Shown: positions 3-6,614 of the stretch, piece after piece
How positions within the stretch are numbered: the first letter of the stretch is position 1
Layout of the letters: every line of letters starts with the position of its first letter
NCBI GenBank assembly: GCA_003851245.1
Contig: BHEP01000014.1
Coordinates: forward strand, 1-57,232
DNA length: 57,232 nucleotides
Reading direction: 5' to 3'
Source of the DNA: Bacteroidales bacterium
GTDB taxonomy: Bacteria; Bacteroidota; Bacteroidia; Bacteroidales; Azobacteroidaceae
Made by a program: the position numbers and the translations under genes
Notes under the pieces: model-generated
Seen by the model: only the letters and a program-made list of their open reading frames with translations
What the model was told of the DNA's origin: nothing
The model's database searches: none

Positions 3-1166
3 ATAATATTAATGATTGCTATTTGCTCTGCGTATTCATTGCAATGCTTTGCACAAAAAACAATTAATAAGGACGAATTTGATCGTTTAGTAGATTATGC
101 AAACTGCAAATATACTGCAGGATATATCGAGACCCGCAGAAATATTGAAAGTGAAAAAAAAGATATTGTCAGATATGACAATAATATAAAACCAATTATC
201 CAAGGAGCGACTATAGACAAATCTCCTACAATAGATGAGTTTGGACCGCTTTTGGAAAACAATGGCTGGAAAGATACATTTACCAATTTAACAAAAAAAA
301 TCGATGAGAAAAAATCCAAATTTGCTGGTAGCGAAATGTCTCTTGTTGAAGCTGTAGAATTACTTAAATTAGAAAAAGAGCCTTTCGGAGAGCGTTTCGT
401 AAAGATCTTAGAGAACGAGGTTGAAAATTTGCAAAATGAAATATCAACACATTATGCAAATCTTGAAAGAACAGAATCTCAAGCTTTAGAAGAGGTAGTG
501 TCAAATCAAGACAGGGATACTCAAGTAAAACAACTTCAAGACAAATATGACAAGCTTATTGATGATATTAAATGGCTAAAATGGATTTTTGGGGGAGTCT
601 TAGCTCTTTTTTTGATTGCTTTAATTTTTATATCAACAATGATTAAAGGAAGAGAATCTATCATACAAATAGTTCTCAATAGCGGTCGAATTAACAGAAG
701 AATCTCTTCTGAAACAGCTGTTACAACTACAAACTATACCAAATCTTATGCTTTTACAGAAAAAGATATTAATGGTCTTGTTGACAAAGTTTTAGAGCGT
801 TTAAGGTTGAATACGAAAGAAATAAAACCATCACCTCAAGATGTCGAAAATAGCAGTAATTCTATACCCAAAATCAGTGTATTCAAATACCTCAAAGGCA
901 AGAGAGGAAAGGTATTCAGCATAGCTGATAATACTCCTGAGGGAGGCTTCTTTAGACTTTTCAACGAGGAGGGAGAGCTTGCTGATTTTGAATTTTATGG
1001 AAACGAAAAAGAAGCAATAGCAAGAAGAGTATTCCATGATGATATTTGTAATATTATTTCCGGAAATTATGATGCAGGTTCAGTAGAAACGGCTCAAAAA
1101 GGGAAGATAAAACGGGTAGGAGAAAAATGGGAAGTGATAGAACCTATACAAATTAAATTAGTTTAA
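3..1166 (+). CDS. Coiled-coil single-pass membrane protein of the motor operon (5' partial)
   Basis: I do not recognise this family. The first ATG is at 12, but the frame stays open to the window edge and the codons before it are hydrophobic, so the signal peptide probably begins outside the window; cleavage would fall after CFA. Counting from the ATG, residues 15-189 are charged and helical with coiled-coil character, 190-210 form one membrane segment, and 212-384 should be cytoplasmic. The last ~100 residues look like a compact domain (FFRLFNEEGELADFEF, AIARRVFHDDICNII, RVGEKWEV). It ends 3 bp before the ZorA-like gene, so it is almost certainly co-translated with the motor genes. It could sense or transmit a signal across the inner membrane; that role is inferred from topology and position only. 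Confidence 0.75.
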   Translation: MILMIAICSAYSLQCFAQKTINKDEFDRLVDYANCKYTAGYIETRRNIESEKKDIVRYDNNIKPIIQGATIDKSPTIDEFGPLLENNGWKDTFTNLTKKIDEKKSKFAGSEMSLVEAVELLKLEKEPFGERFVKILENEVENLQNEISTHYANLERTESQALEEVVSNQDRDTQVKQLQDKYDKLIDDIKWLKWIFGGVLALFLIALIFISTMIKGRESIIQIVLNSGRINRRISSETAVTTTNYTKSYAFTEKDINGLVDKVLERLRLNTKEIKPSPQDVENSSNSIPKISVFKYLKGKRGKVFSIADNTPEGGFFRLFNEEGELADFEFYGNEKEAIARRVFHDDICNIISGNYDAGSVETAQKGKIKRVGEKWEVIEPIQIKLV

Positions 1167-1169
1167 GAT

Positions 1170-2672
1170 ATGCATTATAATATAATCACATTTGTAATTC
1201 TTGCCATTGTTTTTTTGCAGTTTAAGATGTTTTTGTCAAGCAAAACAAAAATAGGTGTTTTTAAGAAAATTTTCCCGCAAGGAAAAGAAAGTTTTAGCCT
1301 AGGAAAGCATACCAAAAAAGAAGATACGTCAATAGTTAGTCATCATAGCAACTCGGTATTAGCAGAAATTATTAATTCCATAAACAACTACCTTCACAAG
1401 AACAAGGGAGCTGTTAGCGATTTTCATTTGATGAAAGATATTGTCGATCGAAATTGCGACAGTTTAGAAGAAGAAATTGATGCTCAAATACCAATACCCT
1501 TGTATTTAGGCTTGGTGGGAACTATGTTGGGAATTCTCATTGGAATTGGATTTTTAGTATTTACAGGGAGTCTAAACGAATTACTTGATCCATCTTCAGC
1601 CTCTACAGATGGGGAAGGTATAACAGAGCTTTTTGGCGGAGTTGCCTTAGCTATGATAGCCAGTATCACTGGTATAATATTAACAATATTTGGGACATAT
1701 TTTGCTAAAAATGCAAAAAAAGATACTGAAAAAGGGAAGAATATTTTTTTAAGCTGGATGCAAGCAGAATTATTGCCAGAACTTTCTAGTGACACCACAG
1801 CTGTTTTAGAAAAAATGACAAGGAATTTACAAGGTTTTAACGAAACCTTTTCGGGAAATACCCATGAATTAAGAGAAACCCTTAAGACGGTAAACGAATC
1901 GTATCATCAGCAAACGAAATTAATGCAGTCGATTAATCAGTTAAAAATCACAAGTCTTGCAGCGGCAAATATTGAAGTTTATGAAAAATTAAAAAATTGC
2001 ACAGATGAAATCGGCATGTTTTCTCAATATTTAGAGAAGGCTAATGATTATCTGAAGGGTATTACCGCTTTAAATCATAAACTAGATGATTACGAAAGTC
2101 GCACGCAAATTTTAGAAAATGCCGGTAATTTTTTTGCAAAAAACGAGAAATGGCTTGCCGACAATATAGATAGTGCAAATTTAGAAACAAAGGGTTCTTT
2201 GCGAAGGTTTAACGAAGGGATGGAGGCTTCCCTCAGCAAAATTCAAGAGTCCCTTGGTGCTCAGCTTTTAGCGTTTAATAGCTCAATGCGCTCCCAGCAG
2301 GATTTGTTAAAGGAAACGCTCAAAGAGCAAAATGAAGCTTTGAAAGGGAAATCCCAAGAAATAAGCATGATCGTAGACGAAATCAAAAACTTGAGCGCAG
2401 TAAAAACAAGTATCTCTAATTTCGAAAGCACAACTAGTATTCAGAATAAAAAGATAGACGACTTAGTAAATGCTATTCAAAAGCTAACTAAAATTAAAAC
2501 AGCAGAGAAACCCAAGCTAGAAATCCCTCAATGGGAACCCAAGCTAGAAATTCCTCTATGGCTAAAAGCAACAATAGTTACGGTAGGTGGAATAATATCA
2601 GTAAGCTGTCTTGCTATATTAGTCCCCTTATTAATAGAGTGGGTATCTAACCTTATAAAGTGGTTATTCTAA
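1170..2672 (+). CDS. MotA/TolQ/ExbB-family channel subunit, ZorA-like, with long coiled-coil tail
   Basis: This is probably the ion-conducting stator subunit of a motor like MotA or Zorya ZorA. The protein has 500 residues. Membrane segments fall at about 4-20, 109-132 (LGLVGTMLGILIGIGF) and 152-178 (LFGGVALAMIASITGIILT); the last two carry the Gly/Ala-rich pattern of MotA/TolQ/ExbB channels. Residues 180-460 form a long coiled-coil tail, as in ZorA. A fourth hydrophobic segment at about 466-490 ends the protein, which I would not expect in a canonical ZorA. The next gene starts inside this stop codon (TAATG), so the two are translationally coupled, which fits subunits of one complex. ExbB and TolQ are less likely because the tail is long and the partner has an OmpA domain. 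Confidence 0.8.
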   Translation: MHYNIITFVILAIVFLQFKMFLSSKTKIGVFKKIFPQGKESFSLGKHTKKEDTSIVSHHSNSVLAEIINSINNYLHKNKGAVSDFHLMKDIVDRNCDSLEEEIDAQIPIPLYLGLVGTMLGILIGIGFLVFTGSLNELLDPSSASTDGEGITELFGGVALAMIASITGIILTIFGTYFAKNAKKDTEKGKNIFLSWMQAELLPELSSDTTAVLEKMTRNLQGFNETFSGNTHELRETLKTVNESYHQQTKLMQSINQLKITSLAAANIEVYEKLKNCTDEIGMFSQYLEKANDYLKGITALNHKLDDYESRTQILENAGNFFAKNEKWLADNIDSANLETKGSLRRFNEGMEASLSKIQESLGAQLLAFNSSMRSQQDLLKETLKEQNEALKGKSQEISMIVDEIKNLSAVKTSISNFESTTSIQNKKIDDLVNAIQKLTKIKTAEKPKLEIPQWEPKLEIPLWLKATIVTVGGIISVSCLAILVPLLIEWVSNLIKWLF

Positions 2673-3382
2673 TGTCAAAAGTGAAAAAAGAATCATTTTT
2701 TTGGACAAGCTATTCTGATTTAATGACAAGTTTGTTTTTTGTAATGCTTGTACTGTTCGTGTTAACCATTGTTATGTTGCATAAACGAATGGTACAATTA
2801 GAAATAGCCGAAAATCTAGCGCAAGAGCAAATAGATAAAATAGCCGAAAATCTAGCGCAAGAGCAAATAGATAAAATAGCCGAAAATCTAGCGCAAGAGC
2901 AAATAGATAAAATAGAAGAAATAGAACAAGCCACAAAAGATATAGACCCAAACTATTTTATATATAATGACGAATACAAGAAACATATATTAAACATAAA
3001 TGTAAACTTTCCAAGTGGAGTATCAGATATGAATTCAATAGATACTACTACACAAGAGAAGTTAATCGAAGCTGGGAGGGTTATTCAAGGTTTGATAGAG
3101 GAAAAAACAACGAAATATGGCATACAATATCTACTCATAATTGAAGGGCAAGCTTCAAGAGACAACTATGCGAGAAACTATGAACTTAGCTATGCTCGAG
3201 CATTGAATCTCAGTCATTTTTGGAAAGAAAATGGCCTGGATTTTGGAAGTAATTGTGAACTCTTAATATCTGGAATCGGTACAGGAGGAGTCATGCGCGA
3301 GAAAGAAGAACTAAAGAATCAACGCTTCCTAATACATATCATCCCGAAACCAGGTATCATAGAAGCAAGCAAAAATAAATAG
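2672..3382 (+). CDS. MotB/OmpA-family subunit, ZorB-like
   Basis: This is the peptidoglycan-anchoring partner of the ZorA-like channel. I chose the ATG at 2672, which overlaps the upstream stop, over the in-frame GTG at 2660. Residues 10-40 contain a short cytoplasmic start and one membrane helix (WTSYSDLMTSLFFVML); Asp16 sits where MotB and ZorB carry the proton-binding aspartate. Residues 45-80 are three identical 12-residue repeats (IAENLAQEQIDK) forming the periplasmic linker. Residues ~100-230 are an OmpA-like domain with the family pattern EGQAS, NYELSYARA and NQRF. A MotB-type protein in a phylum without flagella, next to a ZorA-like gene, points to a Zorya-related motor. Confidence 0.82.
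   Translation: MSKVKKESFFWTSYSDLMTSLFFVMLVLFVLTIVMLHKRMVQLEIAENLAQEQIDKIAENLAQEQIDKIAENLAQEQIDKIEEIEQATKDIDPNYFIYNDEYKKHILNINVNFPSGVSDMNSIDTTTQEKLIEAGRVIQGLIEEKTTKYGIQYLLIIEGQASRDNYARNYELSYARALNLSHFWKENGLDFGSNCELLISGIGTGGVMREKEELKNQRFLIHIIPKPGIIEASKNK
2804..2911 (+). repeat. Three perfect 36-bp in-frame tandem repeats in the ZorB-like linker
   Basis: The copies at 2804-2839, 2840-2875 and 2876-2911 are identical at every base and encode IAENLAQEQIDK three times. They lie just after the membrane helix of the ZorB-like protein. The lack of any synonymous difference implies recent or ongoing copy-number change. Because the unit is a multiple of three, gain or loss would change linker length without breaking the frame. 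Confidence 0.95.
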
Positions 3383-3385
3383 AGA

Positions 3386-4033
3386 ATGCTACGAATGAGA
3401 TTCACATTACATATCATACTTGTTATTATTCTATTCACATCATCCTCTTGTGTACGAAAATCAGGGAGAAAGGAGTTTGCGACTAACAAATCAGAAAGCC
3501 AGATAGAGAATAAGGAAAGGCGAGATGTTGCGAGTGCTGAAAGGGAATCGGAGACTTCAATGCAATCAAGCGCTAAATCGGGAAATAAAGAAAGATTTCT
3601 GCAAAAGCAAGAGCAAAAATATGATTACTACGTACAAGTTGTAGGTGTTTCTGATGGCGATACTTTCGATGGGCTAAGTCAGGAGAAAATAGAAATACGC
3701 TTTCGTATTTATGGTGTTGATGCACCGGAAAAGAAACAAGCTTTTGGTAATAAGTCAAAACAATATCTCTCGGACTTAATATATAATAAGAAAGTTGGAC
3801 TAAAGGTTCAGAAAAAAAGAGATGGATTTGGTCGCCCAATCGTATGGGTGTATACTTCTGACGGCAAAGATATTGGAGCCGAAATGTTGAAAGCGGGTAT
3901 GGCATGGCATTTCAAAAAATATGACAAGTCGAAAGAATATCATGGCTTGGAAAATACTGCAAGAAAAAATAGAGTAGGTCTATGGAATGATAGCAATCCT
4001 ATAGCTCCCTGGGATTATAGGAAGAAAAAATAA
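3386..4033 (+). CDS. Staphylococcal-nuclease-like (thermonuclease) lipoprotein
   Basis: The protein is an exported nuclease of the SNase family. The N-terminus is hydrophobic and ends in a lipobox, with SSSC placing the lipidated Cys at residue 22; a second ATG at residue 4 is an equally good start. Residues 23-78 form a charged, low-complexity spacer. The SNase domain covers ~80-213. By comparison with S. aureus nuclease, D92 (SDGDTF), R107, D112 and E115 (RIYGVDAPE) and R150 (GFGRP) correspond to D21, R35, D40, E43 and R87, so the active site looks complete. The gene starts 3 bp after the ZorB-like stop and is probably in the same operon. That makes an extracytoplasmic nuclease the likely partner of the motor, although it could be a passenger gene. 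Confidence 0.85.
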   Translation: MLRMRFTLHIILVIILFTSSSCVRKSGRKEFATNKSESQIENKERRDVASAERESETSMQSSAKSGNKERFLQKQEQKYDYYVQVVGVSDGDTFDGLSQEKIEIRFRIYGVDAPEKKQAFGNKSKQYLSDLIYNKKVGLKVQKKRDGFGRPIVWVYTSDGKDIGAEMLKAGMAWHFKKYDKSKEYHGLENTARKNRVGLWNDSNPIAPWDYRKKK

Positions 4034-4101: not shown

Positions 4102-4209
4102 ATGAAAAAAACATCCGTTCTAAAAAAATACATCATACTTGCATTCTCATGCCTTTCGTGCTTGAGCACACAGAGACAAGACTCTTTGCAGGTAGACTTA
4201 TTATATTAG
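4102..4209 (+). pseudogene. 5' remnant of an exported lipoprotein gene cut by the IS element
   Basis: A start codon at 4102 opens a 35-codon frame with a basic start and a hydrophobic stretch (KKYIILAFSCLSC), typical of a lipoprotein or secreted-protein signal. The frame stops at a TAG at 4207-4209 that straddles the junction: its G is the first base of the IS. The rest of the gene is not found beyond the IS, where integrase sequence begins instead. The remnant is too short to identify. It follows the nuclease by 68 bp and has its own -7 box, so it may once have belonged to the same locus. Confidence 0.6.
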
Positions 4210-4225
4210 GGTCTGCTGAAAAACC
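4209..4225 (+). repeat. IS left terminal inverted repeat
   Basis: GGGTCTGCTGAAAAACC is the inverse of the right end at 5841-5857 except for the last base, and marks the left end of the IS. Confidence 0.85.
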
Positions 4226-4274
4226 CTCAATCTCTTGTTTATAAGGTTATTTACCTCTATATTTGTGCAATTAA

Positions 4275-5819
4275 ATGCAAGAAAAAATGGCAAAACAGTG
4301 TAAAAGTCGTGCATATACCCCTACTTATGAGAGTTCTAAACAGCTCACATTGGAAGGTTTTGAACATCCTTTCGAACGCTCCTTGAACCTTGACAACCGT
4401 TGGGTAGTTCTATCTCACCTGATTCCTTGGGACGAATTGGTTGGGGTCTATAACAAACATGTGGGAGAGTAGCGTACAGGTCGTCCCGCTTTGAGTCCCC
4501 GGCTTATCATGGGTTCGCTGATCATCAAATATATGTGTAATCTGGACGACCGCGAAACCGTCGCTCAGATTTCAGAGAACGTCTATATGCAATACTTCTT
4601 GGGCTATTCTAGTTTTAGCAATGAAACTCCCTTTGATGCTTCCTTGTTTGTGAGTTTGCGTAAGCGCTTGGGTCTTGATGCCATCAATGCCTTGAACCAG
4701 CGTATTGTTGAGCTGAAAGTAACTTTGGAGTCCCCTGTGGAGAAGGTTGTCGATAAAACAGATAAGGGTTCTCAAGACGACAACTCAGGTCTTGATACTA
4801 CTGATAAAAAGGATTCACCCCATCGCGGCACTGTTATCTTTGATGCCACGGCTAGTGCCCAAAACATAGCCTATCCAAGCGATTTAAACCTACTCTCGGA
4901 TGCCTGAGAAGTATCCGAACGCCTCATTGACCAACTTTATGACCCGCTTTTACATGGAGCCAAACCTCGCACCTACCGCCAGATTGCCCGCAAGACTTAT
5001 TTGGCTACTGCTCAAAAGAAAACAAAGGGAAAGAATGTTATTCGTAGAGCTGTAAAACAACAGCTAGACTACCTCAAACGAAACCTAAGTCATATTCACC
5101 GTTTACTGGATGCTTTTTCTACCTTACCCTTTAACAAGAGGGATAGGAAATACTTCTACGTAATCCAAACCCTGTATGAACAACAACTGGAAATGTACCT
5201 GCAACGAAAGCATAGCATTGCAGATCGCATAGTAAGCATTCATCAACCGCACGTACGTCCCATTATCAGGGGAAAATCGCAGGCCAAAGTTGAGTTTGGG
5301 GCCAAACTCCATGTGACGTGGATAGATGGTATCAGTTTTCTGGATGAGCTTAGCTGGGATCCCTTCAATGAGGGTAGTCACATGGAACAATATGTTGAGC
5401 AATACCGAGAACGATTCGGCTGCTACCCTAGAGAAGTTTTGGCTGACAAGATTTATTGCACCCGCGCTAATCGAGACATGCTAAAGCACAAGGATATACA
5501 CTTAAGAGCTAAACCCCTAGGAAGACCATCGGCAGCGCCAATTCGCGTAAGTCCAGGAGAACGTAATGCGATTGAAGGAAAATTTGGACAGGCTAAAACG
5601 GCATATGGATTGAATTGTGTCAAGGCTAGACTAGCCCAAACAAGCGAATCGTGGATTGCGGGCATCTTCTTGGTGCTTAACCTCGTCACATTGGCGGGAG
5701 CGGCACTCCCGTGTCTATTAATCAAAGGGTGTTTGAGTTTTTCAGCAACTATCCAAAAGAAGATTGATCAGATTATAATGTATTATAGAATCTATTCAGA
5801 CTGCTCAGTTAAAAGTTAA
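4275..5819 (+). pseudogene. DDE transposase with two in-frame stop codons
   Basis: The 514-codon frame is continuous from 4275 to 5819 but is interrupted by TAG at 4470-4472 and TGA at 4905-4907. Everything between the stops stays in the same frame and keeps family sequence: an N-terminal DUF772-like region (GRPALSPRLIMGSLI), the first catalytic Asp in VIFDATA, the second in VLADKIYC, and the Glu in NAIEGKFGQAK. Restoring the stops by single C-to-T reversals would give Gln and Arg, both plausible (the second in LSDAREVSE). A functional enzyme would need both repaired or read through, so the IS is probably immobile unless helped by another copy. Confidence 0.88.
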
Positions 5820-5840
5820 ATCGATAATATGGGGTCGCTG

Positions 5841-5857
5841 AGTTTTTCAGCAGACCC
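5841..5857 (-). repeat. IS right terminal inverted repeat
   Basis: This is the reverse complement of the left end with one mismatch at the inner base. It lies directly against the integrase remnant. Confidence 0.85.
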
Positions 5858-6355
5858 TAAATAGACATCAGACAGATTGTACTTACTTTTAACAAACGAT
5901 GCCATGTGTTTTCGTGTAACCTCATACTTCTGGTAGGTTGCTTTCGCTTTAGTTTTGCCGATAAGGCTGAAAACATCGGCGTTGTGCTTTTGGAATAATT
6001 CTAACAGCATTTCATGCTTAGAATCAAGACCGAGAAAAGAGTTTTTAACCTTCTCTGAGGTAACATTACTTTCTCGCTCCTGTAGGTCTCGATAAATCTT
6101 GAATATTGTTGCCTTAGTGGTGTCAATAAGAGAATTTATTGCCATCACCTCTTTTGTACGCCCAATTGCCTTACCTAAATTAGTATCCCAATAACTAGGG
6201 GCAATATCGGCTTTCATTCCGAAACGGGATTCCTGTCCGTCAACTGTAATTCGGCAGAAAAGGGGTACGTTAATTACAAACATAAGTTTATTAATTGTAA
6301 ATGAGCTATATACAGGGTAGACAAATGACGACAGAAGGTAGACAATCTTGGACAA
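5858..6355 (-). pseudogene. Tyrosine integrase, N-terminal remnant
   Basis: The reading frame on the minus strand gives about 165 residues resembling the arm-binding and SAM-like core-binding domains of Bacteroidota phage or transposon integrases (CRITVDGQESRFGMKADIAP, then KATYQKYEVTRKHMASFVKSKY). It runs straight into the IS, so the C-terminal catalytic domain with its R-H-R-Y residues is absent. The upstream start is also poor: only a TTG at 6355, or an internal ATG, and the N-terminal strand seems about ten residues short compared with intact relatives. It reads away from the tRNA-Ser gene 175 bp upstream, the usual place for the integrase of a tRNA-targeting island. It should be inactive. 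Confidence 0.75.
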
Positions 6356-6493: not shown

Positions 6494-6529
6494 GTCTAAC
6501 TTTTGGCTGGTTTTGTCCAGACCTGTCAG

Positions 6530-6614
6530 CGGAGAGAGAGGGATTCGAACCCCCGGTACCTTACAGTACAATAGTTTTCAAGACTACCGCAATCGACCAC
6601 TCTGCCATCTCTCC
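6530..6614 (-). tRNA. tRNA-Ser (anticodon UGA)
   Basis: The minus strand folds into a class II tRNA. The acceptor stem is GGAGAGA with TCTCTCC, there is a D arm, and the anticodon stem encloses CUUGAAA (anticodon UGA). A long variable arm pairs GTAC with GTAC, and the T arm contains GGTTCGAATCC. The discriminator base is G and CCA is not encoded. Its 3' end points to the integrase remnant, which marks it as the probable attachment site of the accessory region on the left. Confidence 0.95.

Follow-up and report, generated by a model that had tools for sequence, protein, structure and literature searches.

A Bacteroidota operon combining a putative ZorAB-type motor with tubulin-like and Hsp70-like NTPases and an interchangeable exported hydrolase

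Among the described systems closest to the locus considered here is the Zorya system, in which ZorA and ZorB form a 5:2 complex whose function requires ion flow, an aspartate residue of ZorB and binding to peptidoglycan (PMC11890865). A second precedent is the 2010 prediction of a membrane system with FtsZ-like proteins (PMC2875224). Moreover, DarTG systems are described in published work as protecting against phage. Here, we report an operon at the start of contig BHEP01000014.1 of a gut-type Bacteroidales bacterium (GCA_003851245.1); the whole contig, 57,232 nucleotides long, is referred to as the window. The operon joins genes for a ZorA-like and a ZorB-like protein to those for a tubulin-like protein, an Hsp70/actin-like ATPase and a lipoprotein hydrolase whose type is exchanged between loci. 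We lean, with modest confidence, towards the view that this accessory operon of Bacteroidota type builds an envelope-spanning machine for envelope-sensing defence, the exported hydrolase being its exchangeable effector.

An earlier note, made from the DNA sequence of the window, had described a system of four tightly spaced genes on one strand at positions 3-4033. All four are present, lying head to tail in the order gene 1, ZorA-like, ZorB-like and SNase lipoprotein, and the ATG of the ZorB-like gene overlaps the ZorA stop codon (TAATG). They turned out to be the 3' half of a longer operon. The window is an entire contig (G000:C14), and the operon is therefore severed at the contig start. The last bases of another contig of the same genome (G000:C87, reversed) overlap exactly with the first 15 bases of the window, about 5e-7 such matches being expected over all contig ends. 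At its end, C87 carries the genome's own copy of the Hsp70-like gene, which lies upstream in relatives, and its gene order is a 412-amino-acid lipoprotein, a 167-amino-acid membrane protein, a 479-amino-acid tubulin-like protein and the Hsp70-like protein. Because of the 15-base overlap and the upstream genes on C87, the real unit comprises about eight genes, which encode, once joined, the lipoprotein, the membrane protein, the tubulin-like protein, the Hsp70-like protein, gene 1, ZorA, ZorB and the SNase. The full start of gene 1, MRRIILMIAICSAYSLQCFAQ, spans the junction, and the joined protein opens with MRRIILMIAICSAYSLQCFAQK, an ordinary signal peptide.

For comparison, 84,980 genomes were scanned with a ZorB alignment, which yielded 212 relatives; conservation is based on the best 80, and the loci were gene-called and clustered to compare gene orders. 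The same order recurred, with all six core families present in 44 of 85 loci and many of the others severed by contig ends. In 55 of 56 core loci, an additional gene separates the Hsp70-like gene from ZorA and mostly encodes a protein with a signal peptide and/or a transmembrane (TM) helix; an SNase adjoins ZorB in seven loci, the window included. Thus, both the nuclease and a membrane protein ahead of ZorA recur in other genomes, a point on which the earlier note had made its proposal depend. Gene 1 is duplicated in several operons. Furthermore, zinc-ribbon membrane proteins (L007:1858-3111, 5643-6107), one of them with MORN-like repeats, have the same C-terminal domain as gene 1 or adjoin gene 1 in G026.

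The B subunit is, judging from its sequence, a ZorB-type stator and not a protein of the Tol/Exb type. The ZorB-like protein begins with MSKVKKESFFWTSYSDLMTSLFFVMLVLF, ends in the OmpA-like domain and matches the PADLOC ZorB1 model at 6.7e-12. When the ZorB profile was compared with all solved chains of the PDB, the top matches were ZorB of Zorya type I (8vvn_B, 2.6e-12; 8qyd_F, 7.5e-8), and the type II ZorB 8vvi_A was matched at 5.5e-4; the ZorB chains of these structures are named in the Zorya study (PMC11890865). None of the MotB, TolR and ExbD chains in the PDB was matched by the profile (TolR and ExbD up to E 0.1). Moreover, Asp15 in the ion path and the candidate peptidoglycan-binding residues Arg175 and Arg217 are invariant in 22 of 22 ZorB-like sequences. 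The motor of the type IX secretion system, GldLM, was set aside because the B protein has a MotB/OmpA layout. A tandem ZorB-like pair lies behind a single ZorA in L046:9986-11395 and L077, one copy being very divergent in L077.

The ZorA-like protein is assigned to the MotA/ExbB/ZorA type from its predicted fold, TM layout and position. Its hydrophobic helices lie near residues 12, 115, 160 and 472, that is, three TM helices are followed by a long helical tail and a fourth hydrophobic helix at the C-terminus. By itself, the protein matches Pfam and PADLOC models below threshold. The predicted structure could be aligned with ZorA of the S. kujiense type II system (8vvi_C) over 99 residues at 1.7 A. 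However, ExbB, TolQ and ZorA tie in Z score, and kinship with ZorA is therefore argued from the ZorB partner and not from ZorA itself. An identification from sequence alone was dropped: the tail gives chance matches to apolipoproteins, JetC and LmuB, and the profile of the TM region found ZorA chains only at 0.05-0.5, ranked below chance matches to lactose permease. A grouping of the homologues with Tol/Exb housekeeping systems would have counted against the earlier note; ZorB stands apart from these systems, and the ZorA fold ties with ExbB and TolQ.

Given that ZorB is nearest to Zorya ZorB in the PDB and that large cytoplasmic NTP-binding proteins adjoin ZorAB, the operon could be a true Zorya subtype with unrecognised effectors, the tubulin-like and Hsp70-like proteins taking the role of ZorC/D. 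We regard this as quite unlikely. As the earlier note had stated, no known Zorya effector is recognisable: PADLOC scans of the four window proteins, the proteins of the L011 operon and those of two other loci returned none of ZorC, ZorD, ZorE, ZorF and ZorG. Furthermore, the ZorB tree places all rows of the family in a single clade (100*), separate from MotB and from a classical Zorya I ZorB, with long branches that make its depth unsure. Because ZorB is present and ZorC/D, ZorE or ZorF/G are not recognised, the locus is not filed as Zorya.

Two cytoskeletal-fold NTPases are encoded on C87. The tubulin-like protein is counted as a divergent tubulin/FtsZ protein with a GGTG signature. The Pfam family Tubulin is matched by 33 of 33 members and Tubulin_2 by 31 of 33 (E up to 0.1), the copy of the window's genome matching below the curated cut-offs. 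Its predicted fold, with a predicted local distance difference test (pLDDT) value of 83, resembles CetZ, FtsZ and tubulin at Z scores of 14-16 over about 200 residues. The Hsp70/actin-like ATPase comprises 1,047 amino acids when counted from the start that matches its relatives; its profile reaches Hsc70 at 6e-4, and the phosphate motifs DFGTTNT and DIGGGTTD are conserved. The first lipoprotein carries an invariant E-x-S-x-S motif (ENSGSM) that resembles the MIDAS loop of vWA domains. Directly after its serine protease, the operon of B. acidifaciens DSM 15896 encodes a second, FtsZ-like protein (L042:11386-12642; 418 amino acids, motif GVGGGGGNAV).

Among the functions considered, envelope-sensing defence has the best support, the exported lipoprotein hydrolase being the putative interchangeable effector. 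The slot behind ZorB holds a lipoprotein enzyme of one of five types, namely a trypsin-like protease, an aspartyl protease, an SNase, an Endonuclease_NS or a transglutaminase-like protein. The first downstream enzyme is a trypsin-like serine protease in 35 cases, a gag-type aspartyl protease in 12, an Endonuclease_NS in four, an SNase in three and a transglutaminase-like protein in two, with a further 11 cases belonging to a class with DarT. With the DarT class counted as a single state, at least 15 changes in first-enzyme type map onto the ZorB tree, together with five changes in SNase presence. Some loci contain enzymes in series, either an aspartyl protease and an SNase (L015, L035) or a serine protease and an SNase (L012, L070). 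The active-site motifs are largely retained (GxSGG in 34 of 38 and DTG in 14 of 14 sequences). The SNase of the window, which matches Pfam SNase at 2.9e-22, is predicted to be exported by its lipobox and has an intact active site, as had been proposed; DGDT and R..G.D.PE are kept in 7 of 7 family SNases longer than 150 amino acids, and the window SNase also has an FGR motif, in agreement with the fold and the catalytic Arg, Glu, Arg and Asp motif of the SNase family. The earlier view of the nuclease as the effector holds in so far as the enzyme is there; however, it is just one of the five hydrolase types found in the slot.

Enzymes of different type share similar leaders. The leader CVRKSGRK occurs in the window SNase and in the serine proteases of L011 and L012, CERKSGRK in the aspartyl proteases of L028 and L035, and CAHKSGHK in an Endonuclease_NS. 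The pattern SG plus one of R, H, K or N, placed shortly after the lipid-bearing Cys, was found in 28 of 64 slot enzymes vs 0 of 195 other lipobox candidates, a count that is inflated by related genomes. The window SNase and that of L012 are 83% identical over 46 amino acids, and the leader and linker of the former are longer and protease-like. A direct swap of a serine-protease leader onto the SNase was considered and dropped; L012 holds both enzymes in series, so a fusing deletion is equally likely. Antagonism systems typically have interchangeable nucleases and proteases, and one may therefore ask whether the motor and the cytoskeletal-fold proteins form a weapon or secretion device that delivers the hydrolase to competing bacteria. 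However, no immunity gene recurs beside the enzymes, neither a tube or needle nor any secretion component could be recognised at the loci, and the basic residues after the Cys appear to set the leaders apart from known surface-export signals. Such a weapon is improbable.

The carriers are nearly all Bacteroidota, and the loci with names of Holosporaceae, Oscillibacter and Bacilli metagenome-assembled genomes are taken as binning errors and not as spread beyond this phylum. Among 295 genomes of the window's order, the tubulin-like gene is present in 17 and ZorB in 14, often side by side, which indicates that the operon is accessory. A tyrosine recombinase or integrase lies directly upstream of the operon in seven loci. 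Two further arrangements of ZorAB were found. In a sister class, which arises twice on the ZorB tree, ZorAB lacks the core and is accompanied by two other proteins: one has a DarT domain (4.5e-30), and the other, a DUF6939 protein, matches NADAR-DarT1 below threshold (6e-6). These loci (L006:6713-10835, L008, L009, L072, L074-L076, L079-L081, L084) belong to Bacteroides and Parabacteroides, and among plasmid records one P. distasonis plasmid carries the class. Such a ZorAB operon led by DarT and a DUF6939/NADAR-like partner looks like an undescribed ZorAB-DarT system. In a third class (L027:1680-6450, L029, L055), the genes after ZorAB encode a DUF4407-like membrane protein, a protein resembling P-loop NTPases, an unknown protein of about 510 amino acids and an aspartyl protease.

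Defence by the core class might proceed as follows. In the inner membrane, a proton- or sodium-driven motor of the ZorA5B2 type, presumably with 5:2 stoichiometry, would grip the peptidoglycan with the ZorB domain. Gene 1 may link the motor to the cytoplasmic tubulin-like GTPase and the Hsp70/actin-like ATPase, and the lipoprotein with the vWA-like motif may be an additional part of the machine. Attachment or injection by a phage would disturb the wall, the ZorB domain would sense the disturbance, and the motor would turn or change its state. This state could be passed to gene 1 and the NTPases, which, as cytoskeletal-fold proteins, would gate the response. The lipoprotein enzyme, probably located in the periplasm, would then be released to act at the site, where phage DNA or ejected phage proteins would be cut while still outside the cytoplasm. 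The earlier idea that envelope damage is sensed and incoming DNA is cut would be one form of this model.

Several observations weigh against envelope-sensing defence. The core consisting of the lipoprotein, the membrane protein, the tubulin-like and the Hsp70-like protein is found without recognisable ZorAB in L127, L136, L137 and L139, so the motor is not indispensable; among the plasmid records, one Prevotella oral replicon has the core in this form. The ZorAB-less core may keep a hydrolase, an aspartyl protease in L136 and a serine protease in L139. Phage records scanned with ZorB and the Hsp70-like protein contained no homologue, and viral contigs scanned with ZorA contained no relative. 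Pfam shows no vWA match for the first lipoprotein, whose vWA-like assignment is one of motif. When 88 flanking proteins were compared with PADLOC, a handful matched (AbiE, mads, MkoA and PDC types); as the matches are few and the scan had no control set, it is not used as support. The gene order, for which the earlier note had suggested a survey near defence islands, recurs, and clear enrichment of such islands is not seen among the flanking proteins. The tie of the ZorA-like fold with ExbB and TolQ and the inflated leader count belong to the same side. As an observation in its own right, one genome of the window's family (G006) contains two copies of the ZorAB-less core.

The occurrence of the core without ZorAB would suit a complex for membrane remodelling or envelope maintenance of the kind described by Makarova and Koonin (2010). 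Shaping or repair of the envelope would then fall to the tubulin-like and Hsp70-like proteins, ZorAB would supply the energy and the lipoprotein enzymes would clear debris. Moreover, the tubulin-like protein matches Tubulin_2, the Pfam family taken as the equivalent of the 2010 set, and the paper lists Bacteroides caccae as well as operons that contain vWA and OmpA genes (PMC2875224). Nevertheless, at least 15 exchanges between proteases and nucleases, a presence in only about 5% of genomes and a position directly beside integrases are not what one would expect of a repair complex, and sister-class ZorAB is paired with a DNA ADP-ribosyltransferase and a NADAR-like partner. We therefore consider envelope maintenance unlikely. 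The exchange of proteases and nucleases fits envelope repair poorly; in its light, an attack on phage material entering the cell gains in plausibility over a housekeeping role, which favours envelope-sensing defence. The more specific proposal of an undescribed immune machine of Bacteroidota, in which peptidoglycan-anchored ZorAB and the tubulin-like and Hsp70/actin-like NTPases control a freely interchangeable exported hydrolase and thereby destroy phage DNA or proteins outside the cytoplasm, is put forward tentatively and with some doubt.

The features of the window are collected in Table 1. The earlier placement of the genes in accessory DNA at a tRNA gene was borne out, as both the tRNA-Ser and the adjoining Arm-DNA-bind_5 integrase fragment are real, and the tRNA-Ser is the likely integration target. 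A search for a second copy of the 3' end of the tRNA-Ser as attachment site returned the tRNA itself alone. The insertion sequence sits between the operon and the integrase and interrupts both the integrase and a small lipoprotein-like open reading frame (ORF), which is probably, though with uncertainty, the remnant of a further operon gene.

Table 1 Features at the operon-bearing end of the window
Feature	Position	Strand	Description
Gene 1	3..1166	+	5' end beyond the contig start; predicted exported protein with one TM helix, a coiled coil and a conserved C-terminal domain
ZorA-like channel protein	1170..2672	+	500 amino acids; predicted TolQ/ExbB/ZorA fold, TM layout, position
ZorB-like stator protein	2672..3382	+	236 amino acids; TM helix with ion-path Asp (SYSDLMT) and OmpA-like peptidoglycan-binding domain
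SNase lipoprotein	3386..4033	+	215 amino acids; lipobox ...SSSC-VRKSGRK, catalytic motifs intact
Small lipoprotein-like ORF (MKKTSVLKKYIILAFSCLSCLSTQ...)	4102..4209	+	interrupted by insertion sequence
Insertion sequence	4206..5860		perfect 19-bp inverted ends, disrupted transposase ORFs (DUF772, DDE_Tnp_1_2); flanks the system without belonging to it
Integrase fragment	5861..6355	-	Arm-DNA-bind_5; truncated by insertion sequence
tRNA-Ser (tga)	6529..6614	-	adjoins integrase fragment

If the defence reading is correct, ZorAB would be a reusable sensor-motor that is not bound to the cytoplasmic effectors of Zorya and, taken together with the ZorAB-DarT-NADAR operons, a general sensor plugged into unrelated effectors. 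Defence could then also work in the periplasm by means of lipoprotein nucleases and proteases. Moreover, the association of tubulin-like and Hsp70/actin-like NTPases with an ion-driven motor offers a testable set of partners for the FtsZ-like membrane system predicted in 2010 and, because the enzymes are exchanged, a likely job for it. How ZorAB signals is directly testable with natural variants whose main difference lies in the effector gene.

Parts of the operon have precedents in Zorya and in the 2010 prediction of FtsZ-like 1 (FtsZl1)/vWA/OmpA systems, and their combination appears to be undescribed; no account of the whole was found in the open-access literature, a negative that carries little weight. 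With the housekeeping motors Tol-Pal and ExbBD, the operon shares the TolQ/ExbB fold of its ZorA-like protein; it differs from them in its accessory distribution and in a B subunit that has a TM helix and OmpA domain of MotB/ZorB type, whereas TolR and ExbD are short and have no OmpA domain. SNIPE offers a precedent, being a nuclease associated with the membrane that cuts phage DNA while it is injected; unlike the machine proposed here, it is a single protein with a GIY-YIG domain on the cytoplasmic side and no motor (PMC13190303). The DarT and DUF6939/NADAR-like proteins of the sister class resemble DarT1-NADAR toxin-antitoxin pairs but share an operon with ZorAB, an arrangement for which no description was found in the literature. 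Like the operon described here, the FtsZl1/vWA/OmpA operons, for which Bacteroides is listed, combine a Tubulin_2-type protein, a putative vWA-like protein and an OmpA-domain protein; the 2010 description, as far as its main text goes, proposes membrane remodelling and includes no MotA/ZorA partner, Hsp70-like protein or hydrolase slot (PMC2875224). The P-loop GTPase or protein kinase that is frequent in FtsZl1 systems was not recognised in the core operon, and a P-loop NTPase-like gene is present behind ZorB in the class of L027, L029 and L055. With Zorya I-III, the operon has in common a ZorB with an ion-path Asp and an OmpA-like domain, and the order ZorA-ZorB; its ZorA-like protein is predicted to resemble that of Zorya in its three TM helices and long helical tail. 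However, ZorA of the core class has an additional C-terminal hydrophobic helix, none of ZorC, ZorD, ZorE, ZorF and ZorG is recognised, and the operon carries a tubulin-like protein, an Hsp70-like protein, gene 1 and an exported, interchangeable hydrolase.

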